Positions 1 to 9,282 of a stretch of DNA of 9,391 bases are shown piece after piece. Source of the stretch: Deltaproteobacteria bacterium (GTDB lineage Bacteria; Desulfobacterota; Syntrophia; Syntrophales; Smithellaceae); contig JAGVUJ010000368.1 of assembly GCA_019136325.1 (NCBI GenBank), positions 1 through 9,391 of the forward strand. Reading direction: 5' to 3'. The notes beneath the pieces were generated by a model that searched no databases, had not been told where the DNA came from, and was given only the letters and a program-made list of their open reading frames with translations. Numbering within the stretch: the stretch's first letter is position 1; every line of letters starts with the position of its first letter. The translations under genes were made by a program, and so were the position numbers.

Positions 1-781
1 TCAGCAGAACGGATTGATTGGAAACGGGAATTCCCGATTCCTGAAGCATTTGGCAGGCGCGTGCGGATTCCGGAGTAATCTCCGCCGGGTGATTAAATTG
101 GGTATTGAACCACAGAGGCCGATGGCGTTTGAGCATCCGGCAAAGGTCTTTCGTGATGCGCATGGGCAACACCACGGGTGCGCGGCTGCCGATGCGTAAA
201 ACGTCAACATGCGGAACAGCCCTTAACGACGACAGCATTTTTTCTAACGTGTTATCATCAAACATCAGCGGGTCGCCGCCGGAGATAATCACTTCCCGGA
301 TTTGCGGCGTTGCGGTGATATAGCGAATCATTGCATGAAAGCGGGCTTTCAGGCTTATCTGACGGGGTCGCGACCAGAAGCGTTTGCGGTTGCAATGACG
401 GCAATACGTGGCGCACGTTTCGGTCACGATAGCCAGACAACGGTCGGTATAGCGATGCACGAGTTTGGGCACCGGCATATGGGAATCCTCCCGGAGAGGA
501 TCTTCTTCCGCTTCCTTGAAACCTGATATTTCCCGCCCATCGGGGACGCATTGAGCGAAAATCGGATCATGCTGACTGCGGATCAGCGATAAATAATAAG
601 GAGTAATAGCCATCGGATATACGGCGTGAACCGCCTTGAACTCACCCTTGTTGATACCGGTTGCACCCAGTAAATTTTCGAGGCGGTCTATTGTGGTGAT
701 GCGGTTTTTGAATTGCCAGCGCCAGTCGCGCCAGTCTTTTGCCGATGCGTTCATATATGAAAGAATATTTTGCTTATCCAA
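1..781 (-). CDS. Lysine 2,3-aminomutase family radical SAM protein (KamA-like), C-terminus cut off by window edge
   Basis: The minus-strand frame is open from about 877 to the left edge and encodes a KamA-family radical SAM protein. Such enzymes use a 4Fe-4S cluster, S-adenosylmethionine and pyridoxal phosphate for 1,2-amino shifts such as L-lysine to beta-lysine; some relatives act on elongation factor P. Numbering from a TTG at 781, residues 123-130 read CATYCRHC, the CX3CX2C cluster motif. ISGGDPL, the SAM-binding GGDP loop, follows about 40 residues later, and GSRAPVV and NHPAEIT blocks are also typical. The N-terminal DWRDWRWQ segment matches the family's usual start. About 260 residues are visible; family members are about 340-420 long, so the part expected to hold the PLP lysine lies outside the window. 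The start is uncertain: TTG 781 has a GGAG six bases upstream, whereas the first ATG (752-754) has no clear ribosome site. The exact substrate cannot be told. Confidence 0.88.
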   Translation of the reverse strand, partial: MDKQNILSYMNASAKDWRDWRWQFKNRITTIDRLENLLGATGINKGEFKAVHAVYPMAITPYYLSLIRSQHDPIFAQCVPDGREISGFKEAEEDPLREDSHMPVPKLVHRYTDRCLAIVTETCATYCRHCNRKRFWSRPRQISLKARFHAMIRYITATPQIREVIISGGDPLMFDDNTLEKMLSSLRAVPHVDVLRIGSRAPVVLPMRITKDLCRMLKRHRPLWFNTQFNHPAEITPESARACQMLQESGIPVSNQSVLL

Positions 782-787
782 ATCCCA

Positions 788-791
788 CTCC
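788..791 (-). promoter_or_regulatory. Candidate ribosome binding site for the KamA-like gene
   Basis: On the minus strand GGAG lies six bases before the TTG codon at 781-779. The first in-frame ATG (754-752) is preceded by AT-rich sequence without a Shine-Dalgarno match. This makes the TTG the better-supported start, although the conserved protein homology begins only after the ATG. Confidence 0.4.
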
Positions 792-833
792 GCTTCTGAA
801 ATTTGGGTCTCACCAAGGCATGTCTCGTACCAC

Positions 834-862
834 AAAAATACCTGCTTGCAAAGCGAATCAAT
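834..862. repeat. 29-base direct repeat, copy 1
   Basis: This is an exact 29-base copy of 1006-1034. It starts AAAAATACCTGCTTGCAAAG and ends CGAATCAAT, and has a near-palindromic core, GCTTGCAAAGC. It lies inside the open frame upstream of the KamA-like gene. The two copies start 172 bases apart and sequence similarity stops outside them. Confidence 0.9.
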
Positions 863-1091: not shown

Positions 1092-2084
1092 GTGGCGGAT
1101 ATCCAGAAACGCAAGGAAAGAGTGGCCATGCTGTCGGTTGCGTCCAATTCCTTTCTTGTTTTGTTTAAAGTTGTCGTCGGCGTCGCCATCGGCTCTGTTT
1201 CAATCATCTCGGAAGCGATTCATTCCGGAGTGGATTTGCTGGCTGCGATGATCGCCATGTTTTCCGTGAAAACCTCCAGCGTTCCCGCCGATGAACATCA
1301 TCCCTTCGGCCACGGCAAAATAGAAAACATCTCCGGCTTTGTGGAAGCTCTGCTTATCTTCGCCGCTGCGTTTTGGATCATCTTTGAGGCGTTAAAGAAA
1401 CTCAATGCTCCTGAAGTCATGGAAAACGTCGGCTGGGGCGTCGGCGTCATGTTATTGTCTTCCATCATGAACTTTATGGTGTCGCAAAAACTTTTCCAGG
1501 TGGGCAAGGAAGCCGATTCCATTGCCCTGCAGGCTGATGCCTGGCACTTGCGCACGGATGTCTATACTTCCGCCGGTGTTATGACGGGGCTGGGAATCAT
1601 CTGGCTGGGACACAGATTTTTTCCCGATCCCAACATTCACTGGATAGATCCGGTGGCCGCAATTTTTGTCGCCGTTCTCATCATCCATGCTGCGTATGAG
1701 CTGACGGTGCATTCTCTCCGGGATTTGATAGATGTTAAACTGCCGCCGGAGGAAGAAAATTATATCCGCAACATCATTATCCACGAGCACACGATTTACG
1801 GCTTCCACCAGTTGCGGACACGCAAAGCCGGCCATATTCGTTTTGTGGAATTTCATATCAAGGTTGATCCGCAAATGACCGTGCATGATTCTCACAACAT
1901 TACCAGAGCATTGAAACAAAATATCAGAAAAAAGTTCGATGATTGCGTGATTACCATTCATATCGAGCCCTGTGATGGTGAATGCTCCGATATGTGTCAG
2001 GCCGGTTGCTTATTGTCGAAGGATAAAAGACCGGAAAGAAAGCAGAATCGGGCCGGAGCCGATCAGACATCATCATCAAAATGA
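1092..2084 (+). CDS. Cation diffusion facilitator (CDF) family divalent metal transporter
   Basis: This inner-membrane exporter would move a divalent metal ion, probably Zn or Cd, out of the cytoplasm by exchange with protons. The 330 residues contain six predicted membrane helices within about the first 205 residues. The metal site pairs are H44xxxD48 (HSGVD) in helix 2 and H152xxxD156 (HLRTD) in helix 5; by family rules an HD-HD site suggests Zn/Cd rather than Mn. HHPFGHGKIE (69-78) is the conserved loop after helix 2. The cytoplasmic domain, about 207-293, has the GFHQLRTR, VEFHIKVD and HIEP landmarks that bind metal and dimerise in FieF-like proteins. The tail is unusual: C294, C298, C302 and C306 form CX3CX3CX3C, followed by a charged end. 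The start is GTG, with AAGGAG at 1081-1086 five bases upstream. The gene converges on truA, its stop 11 bases from that of truA. The particular metal is not certain. Confidence 0.93.
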   Translation: MADIQKRKERVAMLSVASNSFLVLFKVVVGVAIGSVSIISEAIHSGVDLLAAMIAMFSVKTSSVPADEHHPFGHGKIENISGFVEALLIFAAAFWIIFEALKKLNAPEVMENVGWGVGVMLLSSIMNFMVSQKLFQVGKEADSIALQADAWHLRTDVYTSAGVMTGLGIIWLGHRFFPDPNIHWIDPVAAIFVAVLIIHAAYELTVHSLRDLIDVKLPPEEENYIRNIIIHEHTIYGFHQLRTRKAGHIRFVEFHIKVDPQMTVHDSHNITRALKQNIRKKFDDCVITIHIEPCDGECSDMCQAGCLLSKDKRPERKQNRAGADQTSSSK

Positions 2085-2095
2085 AAAGCCGCTGA

Positions 2096-2878
2096 TCATA
2101 ACAGGCTAAGCGGAGGAGTAATGGGCGGTAAGCCATCGCCTTTGTAAAGCACCTTTTCCAGAAAAAGGCCGGACGGCGGGGCGGTAAAGCGCGCCGGTAT
2201 TTCCGAGTAGGCTTTCAGCATTTTTTCGATGTCACGCTGGGTAAAGTTTCCACGGCCGGCCTCGACCGTCACACCCACGATGCGGCGTACCATTTTCCAC
2301 AGGAAATGAGAGCCGACGATGCGAATGATTATAAGATTGTCGAATTCCCTGAGCCACAGCCCTTCAAGATTGACCCTGGTCGACGAATCCCTGTCCATTC
2401 TTTTGTCGGCGAATGAGGCGAAATCGTGAAATCCCTGAAAAACATCCAGCGTGTGCTTCATTTTGCTGCAGTCGAGCTTATCCTTGACCCACCAGACATA
2501 GCGCTTGCCGAACGCCGTGCGTCGTCGGGAAATCAGATAAAGATAGCTGCGGCTGACCGCGTGATGACGGGCGTGGAAACGTGGCGGCGCGTTTTCCACC
2601 TTCAGGATATTGACGCTCGCCGGAAGGTTATCGTTGATGCCCATACGCAGAGAGTCGGGATTGACCTTCCGGGATGATTCCAGGTGAGCGGTTTGCGCCA
2701 GAGCGTGAACACCGGCATCGGTGCGGCCGGCTCCCTGGACTTCCACGGGTGAGTCCAGAAATTGCTGCGCGGCATGGATTAACGTTTCCTGAACACTGCG
2801 GGCGTTTTTCTGCGTTTGCCAGCCGTGATAATGGGTTCCGTCGTATTCGAGTACAATTTTATACTTATACAATGCCAT
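2096..2878 (-). CDS. truA: tRNA pseudouridine(38-40) synthase TruA
   Basis: TruA converts uridines 38, 39 and 40 of the anticodon stem-loop of many tRNAs to pseudouridine in the cytoplasm, helping reading-frame maintenance. The 260-residue length is normal for the family. The opening YKIVLEYDGTHYHGWQ is the standard TruA start, and GAGRTDAGVHA (49-59) holds the catalytic Asp54. HHAVSRSYLY and HFLWKMVRR are conserved blocks of the second half, and DFASFADK lies between them. The ATG at 2878 fits the conserved N-terminus, although the ribosome site is weak (a GAGG about 14 bases or more upstream). The gene follows the NlpC/P60 lipoprotein gene on the same strand after an 82-base gap, so the two may be cotranscribed. 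No hairpin terminator fits in the 11 bases before the convergent CDF gene. Confidence 0.97.
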   Translation of the reverse strand: MALYKYKIVLEYDGTHYHGWQTQKNARSVQETLIHAAQQFLDSPVEVQGAGRTDAGVHALAQTAHLESSRKVNPDSLRMGINDNLPASVNILKVENAPPRFHARHHAVSRSYLYLISRRRTAFGKRYVWWVKDKLDCSKMKHTLDVFQGFHDFASFADKRMDRDSSTRVNLEGLWLREFDNLIIIRIVGSHFLWKMVRRIVGVTVEAGRGNFTQRDIEKMLKAYSEIPARFTAPPSGLFLEKVLYKGDGLPPITPPLSLL

Positions 2879-2960
2879 TGTCCGAAGAGGCCTCGTTTTA
2901 TGAACAACACGTTTCGCAGGGCGTGCCTGAGAAGCCGTTCCGTCTTGTGGCGTTCATTTT

Positions 2961-4301
2961 TTATTTTGACGGCGTCAGTATGGTCATGGCGGCAATATGT
3001 TTTATTAATATGCCGTCGGTATCGATATCGCTTAATTCTTTGCCCGGGTACAGTGTTGTGATGGCCGCTTTGCCGATAATCTTACGGCCTTCCTGACCGT
3101 CGGCATCTATGGTTCTGACTCCCCACACATTATGGAAAATCAACGCCCGTCCGTTATATGCCCCAATGTAAAGCATGACATGTCCCCTGCGCCAGAGCAG
3201 ACTCAAATAAGGTATGCCTTGTTCCAGGATTATTTTTTCCTTTGCTTCCGGCTCAAGGTCCTTCAGGCTGATGTAGGTTCCTGTTTTTTTGACCTGATCT
3301 TCCGAGTGCCGGGGCAGCCAAAGGCCGAACGGAGCAAAAAAATCTCTCGTCATGGCCGAACAGTCCCGATTTCCGTAAAGCCCTCCCCACCCGTACGGTT
3401 CGTCGATCAGTTCATTGGCAATTTTGATCGCGTTGGCGTAAGTAAACGGCAGGGGCTTGATTTCTGTGATCTCACGGGAAACAAAGCCGTGTTTGATGAC
3501 CGCATGGTTATGTTCGTTTGCGGCAGCGATCAGTATTTCCAGAGTATCCGGCGAGGCGTTAACCAGCGGAAACATTTGCCCGATGGATGTTCTGAGGCCG
3601 AAAGTGCCGCTTGCGTCAAACACAGGGGTTTTGTCCCGAATGACGACAGCATACCGCCCGGCCTCCCATGTTTTTATAAAATCGTCATCAACGCGCGCGA
3701 AATCCTCGACGGGGACCCATCCGAAAGCGAAACTTGTTTCAATCAGTGCCCACGACTGGTCTTGACTCAGATGGCAGATCAACACCGGGGTATTGGCCGG
3801 TACCGAAGATATTTGCAGATTATCAAAAGGCCAGCCGTTGATGTCTCCGCCCGGTTTGTAAAAGTGAGGACCCTGCGTAGGCAGCATACGCAGATTCGTC
3901 GTTCTGGTGGTGATGGCCGGACGCAACGTATTGGGATAATGCTCCAGCGCAGCATTTTGCTGAAGTTTTTTCAGCCATGTGGCGGAATGCTTTTTCTTGT
4001 TCTCTCCGTAGCCGGGAGTCATGGCAAATTTTTCAAAGATAAAAGATACGCGTTCCGGCGATGCGTGAACCGGTTGGGGATTATGCCAGACCGCAAAGAA
4101 TATCTTATCATAATTTTCGTTCATGGTTGTTTGAACATCCCGGGGCAGAAATACCTTGTCCTGGGGAACGGCGGTCAGACGGGACGCATGATCCTGCGGT
4201 AAATCCGTGACATCCTTGATTTCCTGAAACGTATCGGGAGATTTCAAATAGCAGGAAACTAAAAAGAGAGTTAAAATAATAAAGATGTATTTTATTCTCA
4301 T
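2961..4301 (-). CDS. SH3 domain-containing NlpC/P60 family cell-wall hydrolase, predicted lipoprotein
   Basis: This is a predicted peptidoglycan endopeptidase that would cleave stem peptides in the periplasm. Residues 1-17 are a lipoprotein signal with lipobox LVSC, so Cys17 would be lipidated. The layout matches multi-domain NlpC/P60 enzymes with bacterial SH3 domains, such as the Desulfovibrio type. An N-terminal family-specific region spans about 40-125. A first SH3 domain spans about 128-200 (TTNLRMLPTQGPHF, then WALIETSFAFGWVP), and a second about 205-255. The papain-like catalytic domain spans about 285-395, with Cys314 (NRDCSAM), His374 (RGHVMLYIG) and His390 (FHNVWG) as the expected Cys-His-His triad; YGWGG (303-307) is also typical. 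The start ATG has GAGG eight bases upstream and a candidate promoter near 4331-4359. Substrate preference, for example for peptides starting with L-Ala-gamma-D-Glu, is family knowledge and is not shown here. Confidence 0.93.
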   Translation of the reverse strand: MRIKYIFIILTLFLVSCYLKSPDTFQEIKDVTDLPQDHASRLTAVPQDKVFLPRDVQTTMNENYDKIFFAVWHNPQPVHASPERVSFIFEKFAMTPGYGENKKKHSATWLKKLQQNAALEHYPNTLRPAITTRTTNLRMLPTQGPHFYKPGGDINGWPFDNLQISSVPANTPVLICHLSQDQSWALIETSFAFGWVPVEDFARVDDDFIKTWEAGRYAVVIRDKTPVFDASGTFGLRTSIGQMFPLVNASPDTLEILIAAANEHNHAVIKHGFVSREITEIKPLPFTYANAIKIANELIDEPYGWGGLYGNRDCSAMTRDFFAPFGLWLPRHSEDQVKKTGTYISLKDLEPEAKEKIILEQGIPYLSLLWRRGHVMLYIGAYNGRALIFHNVWGVRTIDADGQEGRKIIGKAAITTLYPGKELSDIDTDGILIKHIAAMTILTPSK

Positions 4302-4513: not shown

Positions 4514-5062
4514 ATGGATAGTTTTGTGCCCAAAAAGATTTTTTTTACCAAAGGCGTAGGGACGCACAAAGATGAATTGCATTCCTTTGAGCGCGCTCTG
4601 CGGGATGCCGGAATAGAAAAATGCAATCTTGTGCAGGTTTCCAGCATTTTCCCGCCGCGCTGTAAAATGATCTCAAAGTCCCAGGGACTGAAAGAATTAA
4701 CGCCCGGGGCTATTACGTATTGCGTCATGAGCCGCTGTTGCACCAATGAACCCAAGAGGCTCATGGCGGCATCCGTCGGATGCGCCATTCCCGCCGATAA
4801 AGCATCCTACGGCTATATCAGCGAACATCATGCTTACGGTCAGAATGAGAAACAGGCGGGCGATTACGCTGAGGATCTTGCGGCGGCGATGCTGGCCTCC
4901 ACTCTGGGCATTGATTTTAATGTAGATGAAAGCTGGGACGAGAAAAAAGAAATTTTTAAAATCAGCGGCAAGATCGTTAGAACGCTGAATGTAACCCAAT
5001 CCACGATTTGTAAGGACAGCAAGTACACCACGGTTATTGCGGTGGCGGTCTTTGTTTTTTAA
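4514..5062 (+). CDS. pdaD: Pyruvoyl-dependent arginine decarboxylase (PvlArgDC)
   Basis: This cytoplasmic enzyme converts L-arginine to agmatine and CO2, the first step of the agmatine route to putrescine and spermidine. The proenzyme cleaves itself at a Ser-Ser bond, and the second serine becomes the catalytic pyruvoyl group. Here the site is S43-S44 in VQVSSIFPP, giving a small beta chain and an alpha chain. Other family landmarks are [16 protein letters not shown] (14-29), [13 protein letters not shown] (62-74) and ISEHHAYGQ (102-110), in which Glu104 is probably the proton-donating glutamate known in the archaeal enzyme. The 182-residue length is normal. AAGGAG (4501-4506) lies seven bases before the ATG. 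The hydrolase gene follows on the same strand after a short gap; no speE or speB homologue is in view, so the fate of agmatine cannot be read here. Confidence 0.95.
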
Positions 5063-5148
5063 AATTTTTTCTGGCGTGACATGCCGGTGGATGCGGTTCC
5101 CGAAGCGGTTATATCCCGGTGGCGCGCATGCTTTCATCGGATGAAGAC

Positions 5149-6033
5149 ATGAAAAAGGCACGATCCATAGACATACCCGACCTGAAGACCCATGATATCG
5201 GCGGAGCGCATTTACCTTATCTTTACTATGAAGGAGAAGCTCCACAGATTCTTTTTGCTCATGCCACCGGTTTTTTGCCCTGGCTCTGGCATCCGATCAT
5301 TGAAGATTTAACACCCCATAGGCAAGCGTGGGCGCCTTACATCTGCAATTACCGCGATTGCGATCCGGAAAGCGGCGGTCTGTCCTGGGATGTCATTGCG
5401 CGGGATCTGATCAGCTTTTGCAGTTCTCAAAATATCAGCGATAATCTGGTCGTCGGCCATTCGATGGGCGCCACAGTGCTCACGATTGCTTCGGCATTGT
5501 TCGGTCTGGAGCCTCGCGGAATGATCCTGATTGAACCGATTTTCCTGCCGGAAGAATTTTACGCGCTGGATATCAAACTCAAAGATCATCCTCTGGCGGC
5601 TCAATCCATCAAACGAAAGAACAGTTGGAAGGATGAAAATGCGGCGCTGGACTATCTAAAATCAAAATCGCTGTTTGAAGGCTGGGACGAACAGATGCTC
5701 CGGTTTTATCTTCAATACGGGATGGAAAAACAGGCCTCCGGCGATCTGAAACTGACCTGTGCGCCGAGAAATGAAGCGGCGCTTTTTATGGGCGGCAAAA
5801 GCACCAATCCCTGGCCCTTGCTGAACAAATTGACCTGTCCGGTCCTGATTCTGGAAGGCGGGAAAAGCTCCAACAGGGAATTTATTGATTTGCCCAAAGC
5901 GACATCCCTGTTCCAGGATGGAAGGTACCGGCTGATTGCTGATGCCGGTCACTTGATTCCCATGCAAAAACCCAAAGAAATTGCTCAAATCATCACATCC
6001 TTCATGGCGGAAGTGTTTTCGGGAAATCATTGA
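5149..6033 (+). CDS. Alpha/beta hydrolase fold protein
   Basis: This is a predicted soluble alpha/beta hydrolase of unknown substrate, 294 residues from ATG 5149. HATGFLPWLW (residues 38-47) is the oxyanion-hole strand and loop. VVGHSMG places the nucleophile at Ser105, and DAGHLIP places the catalytic His at 268. The strand expected to precede the acid reads PVLILEGGKSSN, and the usual Asp after it is replaced by Ser/Asn. The acid may therefore be the Glu in LEGG or lie elsewhere. There is no signal peptide. The start is not certain: GTG 5119 and ATG 5128 are in frame upstream. ATG 5149 gives the neater N-terminus, with GGA nearby, and overlaps by ATGA the stop of a 23-codon frame beginning at 5081. 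The gene lies 86 bases after pdaD and just before the mla promoter. Esterase, lipase and C-C hydrolase activities are all possible. Confidence 0.85.
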   Translation: MKKARSIDIPDLKTHDIGGAHLPYLYYEGEAPQILFAHATGFLPWLWHPIIEDLTPHRQAWAPYICNYRDCDPESGGLSWDVIARDLISFCSSQNISDNLVVGHSMGATVLTIASALFGLEPRGMILIEPIFLPEEFYALDIKLKDHPLAAQSIKRKNSWKDENAALDYLKSKSLFEGWDEQMLRFYLQYGMEKQASGDLKLTCAPRNEAALFMGGKSTNPWPLLNKLTCPVLILEGGKSSNREFIDLPKATSLFQDGRYRLIADAGHLIPMQKPKEIAQIITSFMAEVFSGNH

Positions 6034-6057
6034 CGGATTTCAATAAATGTGTAAAAT
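6030..6057 (+). promoter_or_regulatory. Candidate sigma70-type promoter of the mla operon
   Basis: TTGACG (6030-6035, 5 of 6 consensus) and TAAAAT (6052-6057, 5 of 6) are 16 bases apart. The -35 box overlaps the TGA stop codon of the alpha/beta hydrolase gene. Transcription would begin near 6064, leaving a short leader of about 40 bases before mlaE. It is the best promoter match in the window and suggests the mla genes can be expressed apart from the genes upstream. Confidence 0.55.
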
Positions 6058-6086
6058 TTCCAGCCGGGATATCCTTACAAGACTCC

Positions 6087-6093: not shown

Positions 6094-6102
6094 AACGTGT
6101 TA

Positions 6103-6948
6103 ATGTCTTTTGATGAAGGCAGACAAAAAAATTTCCAGAGTCCGAACAGTTTCTATCTGTTTGTTACAAGGCCGTTTGCGTTCACGGGAAGAACCGTTAT
6201 AAACTGGATTAACAGTATAGGGGCGGCCACTATTTTTCTGATTCTGGCTTTACTCAAAACCTTTCATCCCAAACAGTTTCAGAAGGTTATTCAGCAAATT
6301 TATTATATCGGGGCGCGCTCCACGACGATTATCATGCTGGTCAGTTTATTTACCGGCATGGTGCTGGGTTTGCAGTCGTATCACGCTCTGGTCCAGTTCG
6401 GTGCCCAAGGCTCTCTGGGCACGCTGGTGTCTCTTACTCTGATACGAGAATTGGGGCCGGTGCTTACCGCGATTATGATTACCGCCAGAGCCGGTTCAGC
6501 CATTACGGCCGAAATCGGCGTTCAGCGCATTTCCGAGCAGATCGACGCTCTGGAGACCATGCGTATCGATCCTTTTCGCTATCTGGTCACTCCGAGGATT
6601 ACCGCGGCGATTATCAGTTTTCCATTGCTGACCACCGTATTCGATCTCATCGGCATTATCGGCGGATATCTCAGCAGCGTGATGCTCATGGGTTTAAACG
6701 CAGGGGTCTATGCTCACAGCGTTCAAGCCTATGTCGATATGGAAGATCTGACCAACGGCTTTATCAAAGCCATCGTCTTTGCGGTGATCGTTGCCACGGT
6801 TTGCTGCTATCAGGGATATTTTGTGCACATGCGCGAGGACAGCAAAGGCGCCAAAGCAGTCGGTCTGGCGACAACGTCAGCCGTCGTTATTTCCTGCGTG
6901 TTGATTCTTGTTTCCGATTACGTGGTGACGTCCCTGTTGATGGTTTAA
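6103..6948 (+). CDS. mlaE: MlaE family lipid ABC transporter permease
   Basis: This is the inner-membrane permease of the Mla phospholipid transport complex, working as a dimer with MlaF below and an MlaD hexamer above. The protein has 281 residues from ATG 6103. The diagnostic MlaE block is at 115-139 (IRELGPVLTAIMITARAGSA, then TAEIG), followed by EQIDALETM (145-153), which couples to the ATPase. Several hydrophobic helices follow, including those near 165-190 and at the C-terminus. The roughly 30 residues before the first hydrophobic region are too short for the STAS domain found at the N-terminus of some homologues. mlaF begins three bases after the stop, which indicates tight translational coupling. 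Confidence 0.95.
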   Translation: MSFDEGRQKNFQSPNSFYLFVTRPFAFTGRTVINWINSIGAATIFLILALLKTFHPKQFQKVIQQIYYIGARSTTIIMLVSLFTGMVLGLQSYHALVQFGAQGSLGTLVSLTLIRELGPVLTAIMITARAGSAITAEIGVQRISEQIDALETMRIDPFRYLVTPRITAAIISFPLLTTVFDLIGIIGGYLSSVMLMGLNAGVYAHSVQAYVDMEDLTNGFIKAIVFAVIVATVCCYQGYFVHMREDSKGAKAVGLATTSAVVISCVLILVSDYVVTSLLMV

Positions 6949-6951
6949 AAT

Positions 6952-8196
6952 ATGAACACACCTCTCATTGAATTTAAGAATATCACCAAGCGATTCGGAG
7001 AGCAGACCGTTCTGGATCGGGTGAATTTAAAGATATACGAAGGAGAAGTTACCACCATTATCGGCCTGAGCGGTTCGGGCAAGAGTGTGTTGCTCAAACA
7101 CATTATTGGCTTGCTCAAACCCGACGAAGGAACAATTCTGCTGCGCGGCAAACCGATCCAGGACATGAAAAAAGCCGAACTGACCGAAGCCATGTCGAAA
7201 ATCAGCTACATGTTTCAAAGCAATGCATTGTTCGGGTCCATGACCGTTTACGAAAATATTGCGTTGCCGCTGCAGGAAAATACCAGCTTGAAGAAAAATG
7301 AAATACACAAACGGGTCATGGCCAGAATAGAACAGACCGAATTAACCGAAGCGGCGCGAAAGTATCCGTCGGAGTTGTCCGGAGGCATGCAGAAAAGAGC
7401 AGCGCTGGCGCGGGCGTTGATTACCGATCCCCATGTGGTTTTGTTTGACGAACCGACAACCGGCCAGGATCCTGTCCGGAAAAACGCGATTTTGAGCATG
7501 ATTGCCCAGTATCAGAAGAAATTCAATTTTACGGCGGTTATGGTCAGCCATGAGATTCCCGATGTTTATTTTATTTCCAACCGGATTCTCGCCCTGTATG
7601 ATAAAACCATTGTTTTTGAAGGGACACCGGAGGAACTGGGTAATTTTAATCATCCCTTCAACGACGAGGTCATCCGGAGCCTGGAAGGCTTGCAGAAAGA
7701 ATTGACCGGACTGTATTCCCGGCGGCAGTTTAAAGTTTTGCATCATACCCAGCTGCAAAGCAGAAAGACGGACGATGGTTATTGCATTCTGGTTATGAAC
7801 CTGTCGGACATGGATAAAATTTATTCTTACCTGGGATATGACAAAGCACAGGAAACGATTCACTCAATGGGTATTTACATTGATAAACATTTCGGCGCGA
7901 TCGGCGGCTTTTCCACCCGTCGTAAATCCAATGAGATCGTCACCGTTCTGCCGTTTTCCAATATGGAGGAAACACAAAACATTCTGAATGAGTTCATTGA
8001 AGATTTTCAAAAAGGGGAAATCAGTGATATATGGGTCGATGCTCAAAATCAGGCGCCTTCTCATCAGTGCATCGATTTTTCCATCAAGGTGGGCATGGCG
8101 GAAGGCAAACCTTTTGATGAAATAGAATCGGTTATTCATTTTGCAAAATCTCATCAAAAAGAAATCGGACGGCTCAGATGCGCCGTCAAGGAGTAA
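6952..8196 (+). CDS. mlaF: MlaF-type ABC ATPase fused to a degenerate GGDEF-like C-terminal domain
   Basis: This ATPase would drive phospholipid transport through MlaE. Residues 1-250 form a complete ABC domain: Walker A GLSGSGKS (38-45), Q-loop Gln89, signature LSGGMQKR (142-149), Walker B VVLFDEP (162-168) with catalytic Glu167, and switch His200. MlaF proteins normally end near residue 260-270, but this one has 414. Residues 251-414 follow the plan of a GGDEF domain. LTGLYSRRQF (251-260) matches its opening. VMNLSDMDKIYSYLGY (281-296) matches the metal-binding Asp and Gly-His region, with the first Asp now Asn283. TRRKSNEIVTVLP (322-334) matches the signature, with GGDEF now KSNEI. SIKVGMAEG (377-385) and IGRLR (405-409) match the end. 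It is probably not a working cyclase, and no RxxD inhibitory site is visible before the signature. There is no clear ribosome site, so translation is likely coupled to mlaE. Confidence 0.93.
   Translation: MNTPLIEFKNITKRFGEQTVLDRVNLKIYEGEVTTIIGLSGSGKSVLLKHIIGLLKPDEGTILLRGKPIQDMKKAELTEAMSKISYMFQSNALFGSMTVYENIALPLQENTSLKKNEIHKRVMARIEQTELTEAARKYPSELSGGMQKRAALARALITDPHVVLFDEPTTGQDPVRKNAILSMIAQYQKKFNFTAVMVSHEIPDVYFISNRILALYDKTIVFEGTPEELGNFNHPFNDEVIRSLEGLQKELTGLYSRRQFKVLHHTQLQSRKTDDGYCILVMNLSDMDKIYSYLGYDKAQETIHSMGIYIDKHFGAIGGFSTRRKSNEIVTVLPFSNMEETQNILNEFIEDFQKGEISDIWVDAQNQAPSHQCIDFSIKVGMAEGKPFDEIESVIHFAKSHQKEIGRLRCAVKE
7702..8193 (+). other. Degenerate GGDEF-like domain within mlaF
   Basis: This marks the extra C-terminal domain of the MlaF protein, residues 251-414. 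All the main GGDEF landmarks are present in the right order and spacing over about 164 residues, the usual domain size, while catalytic and metal-binding positions have changed. In the manual alignment the signature reads KSNEI and the two metal-site aspartates read Asn283 and Ser285. A role as a protein-interaction or nucleotide-sensing module on the transporter is inference. Confidence 0.78.
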
Positions 8197-8200
8197 ACCA

Positions 8201-8656
8201 ATGAAAAAATATGAGATAGAAACCATTGTCGGAATTTTTGTCTTTCTGGGACTTCTCTGTATCGGATACATGACCGTCAAACTCGGCAATGTGTCCTTTC
8301 TGGAAGACGATTCTTATCCGATTGAAGCCCGGTTTATGTCTGTGAACGGTTTGAGAATCGACAGTCCGGTAAAGATCATGGGCCTGGAAGTCGGAAAAGT
8401 GAAAAAAATAACCATGGATCAGGAGAACCAGAAGGCGGTGGTGAAACTCAAAATCAAAAAAGGCATCAAAATTTACGATGACGCCATTGCGTCTATTAAA
8501 ACGGAAGGTTTGATGGGGGATAAATTTATCAGTGTTGATCCGGGCGGCGGCGGGTCGCTGTTGGAGGCCAACGGGACGATCATCGAAACACAATCTCCGG
8601 TGGACATCGAGAGTCTGATCAGCAAATACGCTTTCGGAGATGTTAAAAAACAATAA
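8201..8656 (+). CDS. mlaD: MlaD family MCE-domain lipid transport protein
   Basis: This membrane-anchored substrate-binding subunit forms a hexameric ring in the periplasm that passes phospholipids between MlaE and MlaC. The protein has 151 residues from ATG 8201. AAGGAG (8188-8193), inside the last codons of mlaF, is seven bases upstream. A single transmembrane helix spans about 9-27. The MCE domain, about 39-115, shows VNGLRIDSPVKIMGLEVGKV (48-67) and KTEGLMGDKFISV, both characteristic. SPVDIESLISKYAFG near the C-terminus corresponds to the end helix of MlaD that lines the pore. It is a little shorter than the 183-residue E. coli protein, lacking the low-complexity tail. Confidence 0.95.
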   Translation: MKKYEIETIVGIFVFLGLLCIGYMTVKLGNVSFLEDDSYPIEARFMSVNGLRIDSPVKIMGLEVGKVKKITMDQENQKAVVKLKIKKGIKIYDDAIASIKTEGLMGDKFISVDPGGGGSLLEANGTIIETQSPVDIESLISKYAFGDVKKQ

Positions 8657-8685: not shown

Positions 8686-9282
8686 ATGAAAAAACACATT
8701 GCGGGATTATTCACCGTCCTGGTGATTTTGATATTTGCTTTTCCTGTTTACGCCGGCGCTCCGCTTGATTCCGTTAAGAAATGCGTCAGCGAGGTTATCG
8801 GGATCGTGGGTGATCCAAAGCTCAAGAGCGAGTCGGCCAAAGAGATTAAAAAAGAGAAACTCCGTGTCCTTTACAAACAGATGTTCGACGAGATCGAATT
8901 TTCCAAGCGCACCCTCACGCGCAACTGGAACAACTTTACGCCGGCGCAGCGCGAGGAATTTGTTAAGCTCTTTGAACAGGTGCTGGAAAAGGCCTATGGC
9001 GACAAAGTGCTGAGCTATACCAATGAAAAAGTCGATTTTTATAAAGAAACCATGCTTTCGGCAAATCAGGCGGAAGTGCAGAGCCGGATTATTACATCCT
9101 CCAAGGAAGTCCCCGTCTTTTACCGCGTGATTTTAAAAGACGGAAAATGGAAAGTGTATGATGTTGTGGTGGAAAATGTCAGCCTGGTTCAGAATTATCG
9201 CACGCAATTTAACGATATCCTGGCCAAGGATAAACCGGAGCAGTTGCTGGAGATTCTGAGAAAAAAGGTGAAGCAGCAATAG
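8686..9282 (+). CDS. mlaC: MlaC family periplasmic phospholipid-binding protein
   Basis: This soluble periplasmic carrier shuttles phospholipid between the inner-membrane MlaFED complex and the outer-membrane side. The protein has 198 residues. Residues 1-23 form a Sec signal peptide, MKK then a hydrophobic stretch ending VYA, with likely cleavage before GAPLDS. The mature part follows the MlaC (Ttg2D-like) plan: an N-terminal helical region, FSKRTLTRNWNNFTPAQREEFV around 66-87, and the beta-strand region FYRVILKDGKWKVYDVVVENVSLVQNYR, which is the family signature. GAGGAGG (8671-8677) lies eight bases upstream of the ATG, a strong ribosome site. mlaD ends 29 bases before the ATG. Confidence 0.95.
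   Translation: MKKHIAGLFTVLVILIFAFPVYAGAPLDSVKKCVSEVIGIVGDPKLKSESAKEIKKEKLRVLYKQMFDEIEFSKRTLTRNWNNFTPAQREEFVKLFEQVLEKAYGDKVLSYTNEKVDFYKETMLSANQAEVQSRIITSSKEVPVFYRVILKDGKWKVYDVVVENVSLVQNYRTQFNDILAKDKPEQLLEILRKKVKQQ

Follow-up and report, generated by a model that had tools for sequence, protein, structure and literature searches.

The window, by which we mean the whole analysed stretch of 9,391 nucleotides, carries mla genes in the order mlaE-mlaF-mlaD-mlaC, the operon setting expected of an MlaF. The product of its mlaF gene consists of an ABC ATPase which is continued by a domain with a degenerate GGDEF fold. The genes and the features of the fusion protein are as follows:

2-835, minus strand, radical SAM protein, ordinary neighbour
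1092-2084, plus strand, cation efflux protein, ordinary neighbour
2096-2878, minus strand, tRNA pseudouridine synthase, ordinary neighbour
2961-4301, minus strand, SH3/NlpC-P60 protein, ordinary neighbour
6097-6948, plus strand, MlaE permease, 283 aa (PF02405, E 5.3e-79)
6952-8196, plus strand, MlaF-GGDEF fusion protein, 414 aa
6952-7686, plus strand, ABC ATPase domain, residues 1-245 (Walker A GLSGSGKS, signature LSGGM, Walker B LFDEPT, H200)
7687-8193, plus strand, degenerate GGDEF-fold domain, residues 246-414 (sequence profile, fold match)
7798-7800, plus strand, N283, at the position that holds the first metal-binding Asp in diguanylate cyclases
7897-7908, plus strand, A-I-G-G, residues 316-319, at the position of the RxxD inhibitory (I-) site
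7924-7938, plus strand, K-S-N-E-I, residues 325-329, in the GG(D/E)EF slot
8068-8070, plus strand, C373, conserved cysteine just ahead of strand 4
8179-8181, plus strand, C410, conserved cysteine past the last strand
8201-8656, plus strand, MlaD, an MCE protein (PF02470, E 5.7e-21; TIGR04430, 147.7 bits, cut-off 135)
8686-9282, plus strand, MlaC periplasmic lipid carrier (PF05494, E 2.2e-43)

The start codon of mlaD is likely the ATG at 8201, right behind the mlaF stop codon. No STAS family was found among the matches of MlaE at E ≤ 1, and an Rfam scan of the window gave no match at the gathering threshold. In 29 of 31 fusion loci, MlaE, the fusion, MlaD and MlaC adjoin one another; the remaining two, L009 without MlaE and L155 without MlaC, lie at a contig end. 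An alpha/beta hydrolase gene (5119-6033, plus strand) is located immediately upstream of mlaE. Since a relative occupies the same position in 8 of 13 named fusion loci, the hydrolase may be part of the mla operon. The gene two places 5' of mlaE (4514-5062, plus strand) encodes a pyruvoyl-dependent arginine decarboxylase (PF01862, E 5.1e-62).

The ATPase and its C-terminal domain

The ATPase domain has the Walker A and Walker B motifs, the LSGG(M) signature and the H-loop of MlaF proteins. The best NCBIfam match of the whole protein is MlaF (NF008809) with 201.8 bits, which is below the equivalog cut-off of 441, and we therefore assign it as an MlaF-type ATPase and not as an equivalog of the E. 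coli type. The short C-terminal extension of the E. coli style is absent, and the GGDEF fold stands in its place: the tail starts at the point matching residue 246 of E. coli MlaF, where the extension (247-269) begins.

The sequence-only reading had proposed that an MlaF ATPase is fused here to a degenerate GGDEF domain, and the ABC motifs, a sequence profile and a fold match have now confirmed this. Both a profile search (PF00990) and the comparison of the predicted structure of the tail with known folds assigned it to the GGDEF fold. The tail was modelled by itself because the structure search with the full-length model returned mostly ABC domains; with a pLDDT below 50 at residues 246-273 and a pTM of 0.53, that model is uninformative on the arrangement of tail and ATPase. 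Among NCBIfam families, the tail matches LapD best (E 1.1e-4, far under its cut-off). A PDB sequence search with the window tail alone gave no match, and the search with a tail profile gave GGDEF matches. The profile alignment has 69 rows, i.e. the window and 68 of 77 listed tails, seven having been left out for thinning and two (L148 and L149) as ordinary cyclases. In twelve other genomes, the profile found matches with scores typical of ordinary GGDEF domains. Chance resemblance to GGDEF is ruled out by the profile and fold matches, and an artefact of frame or assembly by the recurrence of the fusion across many genomes.

Decay of the catalytic and inhibitory sites

The signature slot holds 51 different sequences in the 69 tails, and GGDEF or GGEEF in none of them. 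The metal-binding Asp column, in which the window has Asn, is occupied by Thr in 61, Asp in 28 and Asn in 13 of the 107 proteins (among 121) that are at least 400 aa long, the 14 shorter ones being left out. In PleD-type enzymes, the positions occupied by Y291 and Q300 of the window make contact with GTP; the roles of these two columns and of the N283 column are taken by us to be those known from such enzymes. No active diguanylate cyclase was found among the fusions, as the signature is intact in 0/69 tails and in 0/44 tails of the group described below. The earlier argument against c-di-GMP synthesis, made from the changed signature and the lost Asp, is supported, and it is very unlikely, judging from these sequences, that the tail makes c-di-GMP.

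The RxxD I-site of receptors of the PopA/SgmT type is replaced in the window by A-I-G-G. It is absent from all 68 tails of the window's branch, and the single RxxD among the 69 rows belongs to L150. A search with L150 gave 59 matches, 45 of which (P0122-P0166) have an ABC domain; L150 and the 43 of these that are at least 390 residues long, two shorter ones being left out, are referred to here as the basal group. Of these 44 proteins, 39 have RxxD nine residues ahead of the signature slot and all 44 have its Asp, while the slot itself is mostly GLNKI-like. The named members come from Desulfobacterales, two Desulfonema species and Thermodesulfobacteriota. The suggestion that the tail may sense a nucleotide is weakened for the window, in which signature, metal-binding Asp and RxxD are all changed, but it is still plausible for the basal group. 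At one locus (L208, G288:C15:1-8500), a pair of MlaF-GGDEF genes, one of each group, is separated by about 3 kb on the minus strand (477-1829 and 4731-6062), and the RxxD-type copy has Glu for the Arg of the motif.

Conservation of the tail

C373 is kept in 48 of the 69 tails and in 103 of 107 close relatives. C410 is kept in 62 of 69, the others being one Tyr and six gaps, some of which are tails cut at the match end. R323 and Pro334 are invariant (69/69). On the strength of this conservation, C373, C410 and R323 are candidates for a new function. Family-specific motifs, e.g. GGFSTRR-NE-VTVLP, are strongly conserved in close relatives. The dN/dS ratios, from five comparisons with the window in which synonymous sites are near saturation, were 0.11-0.21 for the tail and 0.05-0.10 for the ABC part, and these values point to purifying selection acting on the tail. 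Members of about 428 residues (P0036, P0039, P0052 and P0114; loci L005 and L006) have some 14 extra residues near the tail start, which resemble a repeat of the adjacent LNHxQLxRR segment.

Distribution and descent of the fusion

The Smithella loci belong to Thermodesulfobacteriota (NCBI), as does locus L012, titled 'Proteobacteria bacterium', according to the grouping of the genome collection (G004). Tail matches (E ≤ 1e-12) were found in 92 of the 155 genomes of the class that includes G001, the genome of the Smithella locus L001; of the 93 places, 89 lie in frames of at least 358 residues. In a sample of the phylum, with four candidates scored per genome, 50 of 395 genomes had a match to the fusion that reached at least position 397 of 408, at 51 places, and three of the full-length matches contain one stop codon. 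The ABC part and the tail are on different contigs in G251 and G374 and in separate frames of one contig in G497. In the phylum of G538 (Massilia), 398 genomes were searched, again with four candidates scored per genome; 49 matched at E ≤ 1e-75, and no listed match went beyond position 249 of 408. The open frames of 749-824 aa that three genomes contain looked like MlaE-MlaF-GGDEF triple fusions; this was rejected, as the MlaE match belongs to a different reading frame.

In a first tree of ABC domains (65 rows), all 40 tail-bearing rows were on one side of a 100/100 branch, the bootstrap being not settled. The RxxD-bearing group is a set of early branches in this tree, not a clade, and the window's branch (95/74) arises from within them. 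To a second tree (50 rows), nine tailless or truncated MlaFs were added on account of their unusually high scores; six short ones and one truncated one fell inside the fusion clade, and L206 and L207 outside. The label 'fused' changes five times in this tree, and well-supported branches force at least three of these changes. A strict single gain without loss fits the first tree but is contradicted by the second. Loss of the tail is apparently tolerated, since seven of the nine added MlaFs are placed among the fusions. The simplest account of the trees would be one early fusion followed by several losses, and more than one gain of the tail is possible. In one MlaF of the fusion clade (L199, G155:C35:28000-34500, frame 2783-3655), the tail stops after about 40 residues; mlaD lies directly behind the shortened gene, mlaE, mlaD and mlaC still adjoin, and a search of all frames of at least 80 aa at this locus gave no tail match.

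STAS proteins in the vicinity of the fusion

No STAS protein was detected within 20 kb of the fusion (PF13466 at E ≤ 1e-4, PF01740 at E ≤ 1e-3) in any of 24 fusion-bearing genomes, which were hand-picked from the genomes with a tail match; STAS genes are present elsewhere in many of them. As a comparison, the first 20 listed genomes without a tail match were used, which gave 96 MlaE genes in 44 genomes altogether. A STAS match lay within 5 kb of MlaE in 0 of 24 cases beside the fusion vs 25 of the 72 others, a contrast with a Fisher p of 3e-4, which is a rough figure, as neither the MlaE genes nor the related genomes can be treated as independent. It may partly reflect different Mla subtypes. 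The remaining 47 of the 72 MlaE genes have neither a STAS match within 5 kb nor a fusion beside them, although STAS may be hidden in six of the 47, whose frames are 396-513 aa long. A STAS partner is thus not obligatory, as many tailless MlaFs also have no detected STAS neighbour, and the view of STAS and GGDEF as strict alternatives is not borne out by the same 47 genes.

Four fusion-bearing genomes (loci L164-L167, which were chosen because STAS matches adjoined them) have a second, paralogous Mla-type ABC system, in which a short MlaF adjoins a STAS-MlaE fusion. The accessory domain is there a STAS on the permease and in our fusion a GGDEF on the ATPase. No STAS was detected at a fifth short-MlaF locus, L168, or near the short MlaF of G004 at C272. 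In the 25 loci that were read, no tail match was found; the MlaFs shown there end within a few tens of residues past the ABC domain, except L170, which is cut by a contig end.

Discussion

Decayed GGDEF domains that serve as receptors and are attached to a protein of other function are present in PopA of Caulobacter, SgmT of Myxococcus and LapD, and the fusion resembles them in this respect; to our knowledge, none of the three is an ABC ATPase. The basal group is like PopA and SgmT in that its A-site is degenerate and its I-site kept (PMC3509222), whereas the I-site is absent from the window's branch. An ammonium transporter with a GGDEF domain (PDB 8qj3 and 8qpf), matched by the tail profile at residues 469-581 late in the chain (E 1.1e-8), is also a membrane transporter but of a different class. 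MetN and other ABC ATPases have a folded C-terminal domain past the ATPase domain, just as the fusion has. These domains have other folds than GGDEF, and the searches made turned up no ABC ATPase whose C-terminal regulatory domain has a GGDEF fold. Regulatory domains of this kind are reported to self-associate just below the ATPases (PMC7367683).

A further comparison is that with MlaF of the E. coli MlaFEDB complex (PDB 6xbd and 6xgy). It has an essential extension of about 25 residues (247-269) that wraps the other subunit, and it needs the STAS protein MlaB, in whose absence it is not retained on MlaED; when the extension is replaced by a GCN4 dimerisation domain, growth is restored substantially, not fully (PMC7367683). 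In the fusion, there is instead a GGDEF-fold domain of 169 residues and no STAS near it in 24 relatives. Since the tail starts at the very point of the extension and no STAS lies nearby in relatives, the GGDEF fold probably supplies dimerisation and assembly. We consider it about an even chance (probability roughly 0.5) that the tail replaces the MlaF extension and serves as a built-in module for dimerisation and assembly in an otherwise classical Mla transporter. This reading builds on the observed fold, conservation, motif loss, operon and lack of detected STAS near the fusion in 24 relatives; dimerisation, functional replacement and ancestral c-di-GMP sensing are what we infer from them.

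The short extension would have been replaced by a GGDEF-fold domain once or a few times within Thermodesulfobacteriota. The two tails of an ATPase pair would associate, keeping the ATPases joined to each other and attached to MlaE, and would do the job of both the C-terminal handshake of E. coli MlaF and the STAS protein MlaB. The module may first have responded to c-di-GMP, as the RxxD retained in the basal group suggests; a receptor stage is plausible because the RxxD-bearing group branches early. The window's lineage would then have kept the fold and lost the I-site, which would leave a module that is constitutive or responds to a different cue. The earlier idea that the tail may regulate the ATPase is likewise plausible.

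Other roles of the tail seem less probable. That it is at present a c-di-GMP-binding receptor would agree well with the basal group, where the I-site residues are kept with the signature decayed throughout and with the spacing of SgmT, R763HPD to G772 (PMC3509222). The A-I-G-G of the window and the loss of RxxD from its branch make such a receptor improbable here, and binding of c-di-GMP by another route is possible. Sensing of another ligand or of the redox state, e.g. through C373 and C410 or a basic patch around R323, would account for the conservation of these residues and of Pro334. It is somewhat less improbable than a c-di-GMP receptor but still unlikely, as R323, which lines up with the Arg that usually precedes GGDEF, may have a structural role, and C373 is missing in 21 of the 69 tails. 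The least probable reading is that of an evolutionary leftover without a present role. The decay of the catalytic and I-site motifs, the L199 gene with its remnant of about 40 residues among intact neighbours, the several close relatives without a tail, the separate frames in G497 and the three matches with a stop codon are consistent with it. A useless domain would, however, hardly be found in 92 of 155 genomes of a class and nearly always (89 of 93 places) in long frames, nor would a tail dN/dS of 0.11-0.21 and the strong conservation of motifs such as GGFSTRR-NE-VTVLP be expected.

The built-in assembly module may be extended to a more tentative, less probable scheme, in which the lipid pump is controlled inside its ATPase by a captured GGDEF domain, with c-di-GMP directly gating phospholipid transport through the retained I-site in the Desulfobacterales-type group and a ligand-free or cysteine-based switch replacing MlaB in Smithella and its relatives, the window included. 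If true, this would connect c-di-GMP signalling directly to the lipid balance of the outer membrane and would make a GGDEF fold a dimerisation switch of an ABC ATPase. The MlaFEDB paper names the regulation of the active MlaB level, and hence of Mla transport, as an open question (PMC7367683). The position of the fusion at the site of the E. coli assembly device suggests another way to hold or control the lipid pump, and in the fusion family nature has already run the experiment of swapping the handshake for one folded domain, with one group's tail still carrying a recognisable c-di-GMP motif.

The components of the fusion are already known. Their pairing as MlaF-GGDEF, or more widely as ABC ATPase-GGDEF, was described in none of the titles and abstract openings listed by the searches, a scope beyond which most subscription papers and bioRxiv lie. 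The sequence-only reading had called the pairing unusual; it noted neither that many genomes of one phylum have the fusion, nor the lack of a detected STAS near it in 24 of them, nor its start at the point of the E. coli extension. Sequence databases already contain MlaF-GGDEF proteins. Automatic annotation mislabels these ATPases: the MlaF-GGDEF protein of Desulfonema ishimotonii (P0143) bears the public label 'diguanylate cyclase' despite its degenerate signature.
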